DNA from: Epichloe hybrida
Lineage: Eukaryota; Ascomycota; Sordariomycetes; Hypocreales; Clavicipitaceae
Direction of reading: 5' to 3'
Length of the DNA stretch: 64,000 bases
NCBI GenBank assembly: GCA_019022495.1
Contig: JAFEKR010000021.1
Coordinates: forward strand, 248,001-312,000
Every line of letters begins with the position of its first letter. Position 1 is the first letter of the stretch. Shown here in pieces: positions 46,569-51,067 of the stretch. The notes under the pieces were generated by a model. The model was not told the DNA's origin and searched no databases. It worked only from the letters and a program-made list of their open reading frames with translations. Both the position numbers and the translations under genes were made by a program.

Positions 46569-47352
46569 TTATGAGTAAGTCGTGCCTTCGGGTGGCTGTG
46601 GGATCTTCTTGTTCATCGGGGCAGCCATATATCTCAACGGCAAGTCAGCAAGCCCTGGTCAAGGGAAATCAAATGAAAAAAACCCTGGGGGCTCGATTAC
46701 ACAACCACTACCTTCTCAATTCAATAAGAACCGTCTCCATTGTGTTTTCTCGCTTCCACTGCGCAAGACAGGGCAGCTGCTTGGGGTCTACCACGCCGTT
46801 GCGGGCATCGACGCACGGCAGGTTCACCTGGCTTACGAACTGGATCGTCGGCGGCTCATCGGGATAGTTGTCGCCGCAGTGCATCTTGACGCTGTAAATG
46901 CGGTTTTCGTGAACGGACTGTGATGCGCAGAGGTGGTATTAGCGATGATGAGGCTGCGTTTTGTTCTCGACACGCTTCCTGTTTTTTTTTATTCTTGGTT
47001 CTCATGCCGTCTATGAGTGACGCCCCTGGGGACATGGGTCGGCAGGCCATTTGTTTGTTGCCCCTTCCTCCCATCTCTTTTTGTGCCCCTCATCGTGGGA
47101 ACTCGAGAATATGAAACTGACGAGCATGGCGCGATGTTCTTGCCAGTCTGACCGGAGAGAGGAGAAGGAACGCGGGGGGAGATGAAGGAAATGGCTCACA
47201 TGAGGGGGTCCGAGAATGGTGCCGTTCCAGTTACTCATCAGGAGATCCTCGCCGTCCTCGAGACCGTAGCTGCATGCCTCGGCACCAAGACCCTTCTCGC
47301 CCTTCTCGAGCTCTTCTAGGAGGCGGAAGTTCCGGGGAACCTTGGCCGTCAT
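46569..47352 (-). CDS. MMS2: ubiquitin-conjugating enzyme variant Mms2
   Basis: Catalytically inactive E2 variant that pairs with Ubc13 to build Lys63-linked ubiquitin chains in post-replication DNA repair. Exons are 47200-47352, 46712-46917 and 46569-46632, giving 140 residues; all phases agree. The N-terminus [21 protein letters not shown] and exon 2 ([21 protein letters not shown], then [13 protein letters not shown]) are diagnostic. The C-terminus reads [20 protein letters not shown]. The E2 catalytic Cys environment (HPN...C) is absent, as expected for a UEV. A poly-T tract and the divergent SLP2 gene lie upstream. Confidence 0.95.
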
Positions 47353-47864
47353 GTTGGCGATACGGAGGTGCGGTGCTCAATTTTTTTTCTTGGTTCCTTT
47401 TTTTTTTTTTTTTTTTTTTTCAAGGGGGATGTTGGTTTCTTTGCTGGGTTGGCGGGAGAGGTGGTTGCAGGGGCGGATGGTGAAGCTGGTGGGTGAGGAA
47501 CGTTGTTCAGGGGATTCTGGGGGTTGGATTTGTCCCGCTGCAAGCTCGGGGGCGGGGCAAGCTTTGCCGTTTGAAGTCGGATGAGAGAAGGAGGCGAGGC
47601 GGCAGCTGGCTTTGCTGGCGGGTAAACGCCGGCCCTTCTTTCTTCCTTTGCTCTCTCGAAAAGTTAGGGTCGGGGGTGCACTTCCGGCCGGTTTCGTGGA
47701 AGCTGATTGTTTCGACCCGTTGGCATCTCTCGGCGGAACGCTCTTTTGGAAAAAAAAAATCCGAGACGACAAAACATCCCAACAACCCACATCGACCAGC
47801 AACCGGCTCTGCGCGGCGTCTTCTCGCATTGTGCGGCTCCGACGTACGCAACAGCCCGCCCAGC
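47353..47864. other. divergent promoter MMS2 / SLP2
   Basis: 512 bp between two divergent start codons. It contains a 22-base T run at about 47399-47420. Open frames here are extensions of the flanking genes in other phases. Confidence 0.6.
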
Positions 47865-49872: not shown

Positions 49873-51067
49873 ATGAGTAGCCCTCGTCGTAGAATCGAGA
49901 CTGATGTGAGTTACTAATGCCCTCTCGCCGACGCGGGGGACGCTCCGTTGGCTGTCTTGGAACGCCTAAACACTGACGTTGGTCCTCCGCAGGTCATGAA
50001 GTGCGCCGCTTCCCGCATCTTCCGCTCCACGCGTCCCCCGATGTCCTGAACCAACTGCTGACTCTTTTGATAGGATGTAGGATGGAAAACTCCAGCCAGC
50101 TTTCGAGACGTTGATCGATGCTGACCATCATAGGCTCATGAGTGACTATGAGGTGACCCTTGTCAACGATAACAGTAAGTGGAACGTCTAGTGCTGGGCC
50201 TGACAAGTACTAAACGCTCATAGTGTAAGATGTCAAACTGCCGCAGCTCTCGCTCGCTTCGCTTTCCCGAATGATCGATTCTTACCCGAAACATCAACAG
50301 GCAGGAATTCTATGTCCGATTCAAGGGTCCAGCGGAGAGTACGTGCAACGGATGTCTGATGCCAAAATTCCCGGGCACGGGCGCATGCATGATTGGGGAA
50401 AAGGTCACTGACTATATACCTCAGCTCCCTTTGAAGGGGGTCTCTGGAAAGTCCATGTCGAATTGCCCGATACCTACCCGTACAAGTCGCCGAGCATCGG
50501 TTTCGTCAACCGCATCTTTCACCCCAATATTGATGAGTTGTGAGTTGAAACCTGGTGGCTACCGCAACATGGACTCACACAAAATGGAATGAAGCGTACA
50601 AGAAAACACTTGCAAGTCTCTATTGGAAAGCACTGCGAATGCGGATACTGAGACGCTTCACCTTGGACAGGTCCGGATCCGTTTGTTTAGATGTTATCAA
50701 CCAGACTTGGTCCCCAATGTTCGACATGATCAACATTTTTGAAGTGTTTCTTCCACAACTCCTCCGCTATCCCAATCCAACTGATCCTCTCAACGGAGAA
50801 GCCGCTGCTCTGCTGATTAGAGAACCAAAGAGCTATGATGCCAAGGTCAAAGGTGCGTTAAGAGGAACAAGAGGTGTAGGAACGGTGGATGTGGCTGCTG
50901 ACAATTTTTGGGGGTTTGCAGAGTATGTCCGAAAGTACGCCACTAAGGATGCTGCCGACGAAGCCGGTGCCGAGAGCGAAGACGACGACGACATGTCTTC
51001 TGTCGCCAGCTTTGGGGACGACGACGACGACGACGACGAGCCCGCCGGACAGATGGACGACGTATGA
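49873..51067 (+). CDS. UBC8: ubiquitin-conjugating enzyme Ubc8 (UBE2H) with micro-exons
   Basis: E2 enzyme; in yeast Ubc8 serves the GID/CTLH ligase. Nine exons are inferred: 49873-49905, 49993-50000 (8 nt), 50074-50076 (3 nt), 50134-50174, 50224 (1 nt), 50301-50338, 50425-50539, 50671-50852 and 50922-51067. They total 567 nt, 188 residues. The product begins [11 protein letters not shown] and continues with the family's [36 protein letters not shown] (catalytic Cys85) and an acidic Asp-rich tail. Without the single T at 50224 the frame is lost. Without the 3-nt exon one residue of a conserved segment is missing. All sites are GT-AG, and intron 4 has TACTAAAC near its acceptor. The gene identity is certain; the micro-exons are inferred. 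Confidence 0.9.

Follow-up and report, generated by a model that had tools for sequence, protein, structure and literature searches.

A probable one-nucleotide exon in UBC8 of Epichloe, with signs of wide conservation in Pezizomycotina

The ubiquitin-conjugating enzyme gene UBC8 of Epichloe very probably contains a constitutive exon of one nucleotide. This exon, the T at position 50224 on the forward strand of the window (the whole 64,000-nt stretch of DNA analysed), is predicted to lie between a phase-1 intron of 49 nt and a phase-2 intron of 76 nt. As modelled, UBC8 (49873-51067, forward strand) has nine exons and encodes 188 amino acids followed by a stop codon (TGA, 51065-51067). Its product belongs to the UBE2H-type E2 enzymes: it carries the E2 core domain (PF00179, 132.7 bits), and its nearest solved structures are of that type, namely 8pmq_E (2.6e-72), which has the database label 'Ubiquitin-conjugating enzyme E2-24 kDa' and which we take to be yeast Ubc8, and 8pjn_2 (E2 H; 1.6e-67). 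Six exons, of 33, 8, 3, 41, 1 and 38 nt, together carry the first 41 codons, and the full reading frame is obtained when both the T and the 3-nt exon are included; omission of the T destroys it. A further E2-domain match (PF00179) stands on the reverse strand about 3 kb upstream of UBC8, at 46714-46926, with a counterpart at 1298067-1298279 of contig C46 of the same genome.

The evidence begins with the frame. The 41-nt exon at 50134-50174 ends in AACA and the 38-nt exon at 50301-50338, which opens GCAGGAATTC, starts with G-CAG-GAA-TTC; direct joining of the two loses the reading frame. The 126-nt interval between them contains TACTAAACGCTCATAG-T-GTAAGA, in which one base needed by the frame stands between AG and GT (CATAG-T-GTAAGA). 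As the middle base of an ATG codon, T50224 would restore Met29, a residue found in all 55 transcript-like homologues listed (defined below) and in 8pmq_E, to which the protein including T50224 aligns without gaps through NDSMQEF. The frame break in its letters and coordinates, the two intron sizes and, with 8pmq_E taken as yeast Ubc8, the Met at the yeast position had been put forward in the first-pass annotation, and all three hold; the six other introns of the gene, as modelled, measure 57 to 131 nt. Full intron signals, i.e. donor, branch motif and acceptor, are present on both sides of the T. The first intron (50175-50223) has the donor GTAAGT, CTGAC at 50200-50204, the conserved motif TACTAAAC at 50208-50215 and the acceptor CATAG; the second (50225-50300) has the donor GTAAGA, CTTAC at 50281-50285 and the acceptor CAACAG. 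The branch motif CTTAC is modest, which counts against the T exon.

The 126-nt interval was subjected to 20,000 dinucleotide shuffles, of which one produced the pattern [CT]AG-T-GTRNG, with each half at least 40 nt long and provided with a branch motif. None produced it with GTAAG as the donor, and 0.195% did with a bare GT. The improbability by chance claimed earlier for AG-T-GTAAG with a branch-like TACTAAAC is thus borne out. Among 371 pseudo-introns of 116-136 nt, drawn from other DNA of the same genome and including some overlapping loci, none had a GTRNG form and four had AG-T-GT with a bare GT. An intron-end-like string, TACTAACACTACATTGTAG, recurs on contig C1, at about 15 of the places listed there, and is probably part of a dispersed repeat.

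A second hidden exon of UBC8, absent from the first-pass annotation, appears to be read in the same way. The GAT at 50074-50076 (forward strand), in the context GATAG/GAT/GTAGGA (slashes mark splice sites), would restore Met15 (VMK-M-LMSD) and gives a gap-free alignment to the presumed yeast Ubc8. It follows the 8-nt exon GTCATGAA at 49993-50000, with VMK found in homologues. The 73-nt intron before GAT (50001-50073) has CTGAC at 50058-50062 and an acceptor, GATAG, that is identical in a second UBC8 copy on contig C46; the 57-nt intron after it (50077-50133) has the donor GTAGGA, CTGAC at 50121-50125 and the acceptor CATAG. A single intron of 133 nt (50001-50133) leaves VMK-LMSD, one residue short of both 8pmq_E (VMKLLMSD) and most listed transcript-like homologues (VMKMLMSD). 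AG-GAT-GTRNG with branch motifs was found in none of 20,000 shuffles of the 133-nt interval.

The second UBC8 copy, diverged from the first, lies near 1.294 Mb of contig C46. Its corresponding exon likewise starts without a T (GCAGG), and both micro-exons are kept together with the AG-T-GTAAG block. The two copies differ at 39 of 618 aligned intron positions (about 6%) and by 10 substitutions, with no indel, in the 126-nt interval, where CTGAC (50200-50204) reads CCGAC and CTTAC reads CTCAC on C46. Coding differences comprise 15 synonymous and two nonsynonymous changes (pS 0.129, pN 0.0044); both copies are under strong purifying selection and neither resembles a pseudogene. A run of 33 bases around the T (50202-50234) is invariant, which at the local divergence has a probability of ~0.065 and by itself speaks only mildly for the T exon. 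The donor of the first intron differs between the copies, being GT at window position 50175 and GC near 1.2945 Mb of C46 (GTAAGT versus GCAAGT), and the GC donor counts against reading the T as an exon.

The genome as a whole (80 Mb, 156 contigs) yields E2-family matches mostly as pairs whose members score almost alike and lie on different contigs. Together with the intron difference of about 6% between the UBC8 copies, this pairing suggests a hybrid (allodiploid) Epichloe with two parental gene sets. BLAST against the C46 loci covered only positions 23334-63994 of the window, partly and in order. Positions 1-23333 had no match among the C46 loci expected opposite them, a stretch in which the two gene sets are perhaps arranged differently.

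The C46 copy bears directly on the alternative named in the first-pass annotation, in which the exon at 50301 should begin with a T that mutation or an assembly error has removed, the interval being one 126-nt intron. A single intron is the simpler model, and frame-changing indels between the gene sets do occur elsewhere in the window, at 47822 (1 nt), 47858 (4 nt) and 54843 (1 nt, entered twice); these are three cases out of 430 gaps listed, within candidate frames, possibly genes, of at least 200 aa from stop to stop with local identity above 0.93. Set against this, the two copies both lack the T, share the AG-T-GTAAG block and are constrained and otherwise intact, which speaks against both a wrong base call and a pseudogene, and an identical sequencing error in both copies is not credible. 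The loss of a T is extremely improbable, and the protein records of other fungi weigh against it as well.

Alignment-based scans of viral contigs and genome contigs found no relative, so that conservation of AG-T-GT in other species is read from translated intron edges in protein records. Two protein searches (the best 120 of 4,612 and the best 120 of 4,598 matches, clustered at 90% identity) listed 185 distinct proteins, of which 183 were used: 111 from genome annotations of Pezizomycotina, 17 from those of other fungi and 55 transcript-like. The first two labels were assigned by hand according to the organism names shown. The third is our reading of lgn, jgi, ena or merc records without an ncbi source that have an uninterrupted frame and, where given, contigs of 913 to 7,280 bases; at least five of the listed transcript-like proteins stand closest to a rust fungus, not to Pezizomycotina. 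P0114 (labelled Pyrus) and P0001 (labelled Quercus suber) were left out of the counts, the latter being the top match by E-value in both searches, yet 61-63% identical. A third search, with the first 60 residues including both Met (best 120 of 808), was also left out of the counts because its query favours Met.

Among these listed matches, the Met is intact at the Met29 codon in all 55 transcript-like proteins, in all 17 proteins of other fungi and in 18 of the 111 Pezizomycotina annotations. In the remaining 93 of 111 it is absent at exactly this codon, a figure that gives no per-species rate, since wrong models stay separate under clustering at 90% identity, and right ones may be merged. An error at the same codon in so many annotations again argues against a T lost from the Epichloe exon. 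Of the 111 listed annotations, 4, 3, 3 and 3 show a disturbance at the respective other intron sites and none at three control stretches; four of the 55 listed transcript-like proteins show one at the site that precedes Ser81. The site of the 3-nt exon is wrong in 66 of the 111 (56 with indels, 10 with at least three residues changed).

Many of the wrong models carry residues expected from intron edges. Ser directly after DN, found in 43 of the 93 wrong listed models, is expected from A/GT (AGT). Arg directly before QEF, found in 36, fits an intron-final AG translated with the exon G (AGG); in five of these 36 the model has a bare DN-R-QEF, for which read-through gives no simple explanation. 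Met-Tyr after DN, in seven wrong listed models from Fusarium (two), Beauveria, Sclerophora, Kuettlingeria, Hortaea and Aspergillus, is expected from A/T-GTAY, i.e. from reading on past the T exon into the donor that follows. Met-Tyr also occurs after MK among the listed matches, as GAT run into GTAY, in P0014, P0084, P0136, P0171 and P0175. Val before QEF, in 11 listed models, counts against the T exon: in these species a T could stand at the exon start, and the T-exon arrangement may thus be absent in places. Twelve listed genome models from several orders (P0019, P0028 and P0144 among them) have DN-KF instead of DN-MQEF, a form with no splice-site derivation.

Transcript-like proteins were also paired with their closest listed genome model, closeness being judged on the sequence that follows the site. 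Among the listed matches, 14 pairs with a Pezizomycotina partner reach at least 95% identity; Met is present in all 14 of their transcript-like members and in four of their 14 genome models. A threshold of 90% gives 29 pairs, with Met in 29 and eight, respectively. The pairs are not independent, since several use one partner. In the cleanest, transcript-like P0026 and P0040 of Ilyonectria destructans are identical over the 156 residues from QEF onwards and read DN-M-QEF and DN-TPFLPTDTSSTSNRSSR-QEF, respectively. P0026, on a contig of 2,660 bases, begins at the MK of VMK and so is without the first 12 residues. Ilyonectria destructans belongs, like Epichloe, to Hypocreales.

This pair bears on another alternative, not considered in the first-pass annotation, in which a donor 4 nt downstream (AACAGTAA/GTGGAA) would define one intron of 122 nt and Ser-Lys would replace Met, reading AACAGTAAGCAGG. 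Such splicing is in frame and possible in both copies, and the upstream donor of the C46 copy is only GC. The closest listed protein by identity, P0002 of Epichloe bromicola (97%), is modelled with Ser-Lys for Met, and Lys precedes QEF in 10 of the 111 listed models. Nevertheless, none of the 55 listed transcript-like proteins has the Ser-Lys form, and the pair P0026/P0040, taken to be within Hypocreales, has Met in its transcript-like member. The donor GTGGAA is also weak compared with GTAAGT, and its use leaves TACTAAAC...CATAG-T-GTAAGA unexplained. The Ser-Lys form is therefore improbable as the product of UBC8, and sequence comparison supports the one-nucleotide exon, as the first-pass annotation had interpreted it. 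Judged by the protein records, the T-exon arrangement probably dates far back and occurs widely in Pezizomycotina; the T and GAT exons were likely both present in the common ancestor of the group and have likely been kept in many lineages since.

How the spliceosome might handle this site can be proposed from the signals. Since both introns are short and equipped with a complete set of signals (donor, branch motif and acceptor), each would be recognisable across itself (intron definition). With a single base between them, the acceptor and donor flanking the T could hardly be bound simultaneously, so the introns would probably be removed in turn. Removal of the second intron first would give CATAG/TGCAGG, an ordinary acceptor; removal of the first would give AACAT/GTAAGA, an ordinary donor; and either order would yield A-T-G. 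The Met form, excluding the Ser-Lys donor, would have the junction AACATGCAGG, and skipping of the T the junction AACAGCAGG. The computed products of splicing errors are unproductive: skipping of the T causes a frameshift with a stop after 85 residues, retention of the second intron gives ATG TAA and retention of the first gives a stop after DNSKWNV.

It is tempting to propose that the T exon, while real, also makes the locus a splicing switch, in which skipping or retention would yield unproductive mRNA and so set the level of UBC8. Overlapping donors are present, the products of skipping and retention end early and the C46 copy has its GC donor. No alternative form appears among the 55 listed transcript-like proteins, which is weak counter-evidence since only long-frame forms would show among them. 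Regulation of this kind is a tentative and rather unlikely addition to a constitutive T exon.

One-base exons are known from nuclear and mitochondrial genes. In Arabidopsis APC11, the precedent given in the first-pass annotation and borne out by the available text of Guo and Liu 2015 (PMC4674806), cDNA and reporter constructs revealed a single-nucleotide exon; in the available part of PMC8208691 this case appears solely as a cited reference. As in UBC8, the APC11 exon is constitutive, lies between AG and GT, restores the frame and was overlooked by annotation; it differs in being in a plant gene, in a longer interval (422 nt) and in its cDNA and reporter proof (PMC4674806), whereas the UBC8 exon is read from sequence comparison. 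The available text of Nelson and Syed 2026 (PMC12940212) reports RNA reads across a single-nucleotide exon in Fusarium CYP621A and counts it as the second exon of one nucleotide and the first from a fungal gene. Both it and the UBC8 exon are fungal nuclear one-base exons (AG-G-GT in CYP621A) with two short introns, a conserved codon and other models in error; they differ in gene and base, and the G of CYP621A is reported for Fusarium species, whereas UBC8 encodes a conserved E2, also contains a 3-nt exon and shows signs of the arrangement in several classes. Mitochondrial cases, as far as the available texts describe them, also retain one base between two introns, in placozoan cox1 (PMC5436844) and in a fungus (PMC12308204), the latter between group II and not spliceosomal introns. 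Stwintrons (spliceosomal twin introns) of Pezizomycotina, from the available parts of the literature, resemble the UBC8 introns in being adjacent and possibly spliced in consecutive steps, but in a stwintron a splice element of one intron is split by the other, and the mature product retains no base between them; in UBC8 the introns are complete and one base stays. A stwintron reading of UBC8 was rejected, as removal of the whole 126-nt interval breaks the frame. A literature search taking in few subscription papers found no report of a one-nucleotide exon in UBC8.

The T exon of UBC8 would thus join APC11 and CYP621A among nuclear one-base exons, with signs of much wider conservation. It would explain a recurrent annotation error, and many Pezizomycotina annotations would have a wrong UBC8 protein because of the T and GAT exons. 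Its signature, a codon wrong in many genome models and right in transcripts, may serve to find further one-nucleotide exons, and the site offers a natural test of how the spliceosome deals with an acceptor and a donor separated by one base. If ancestral, the T exon would be far more widely conserved than the one-nucleotide exons in the cited papers. A case in a conserved E2, probably common to several fungal classes, would indicate that one-base exons can be stable over long evolution and are not only recent accidents.
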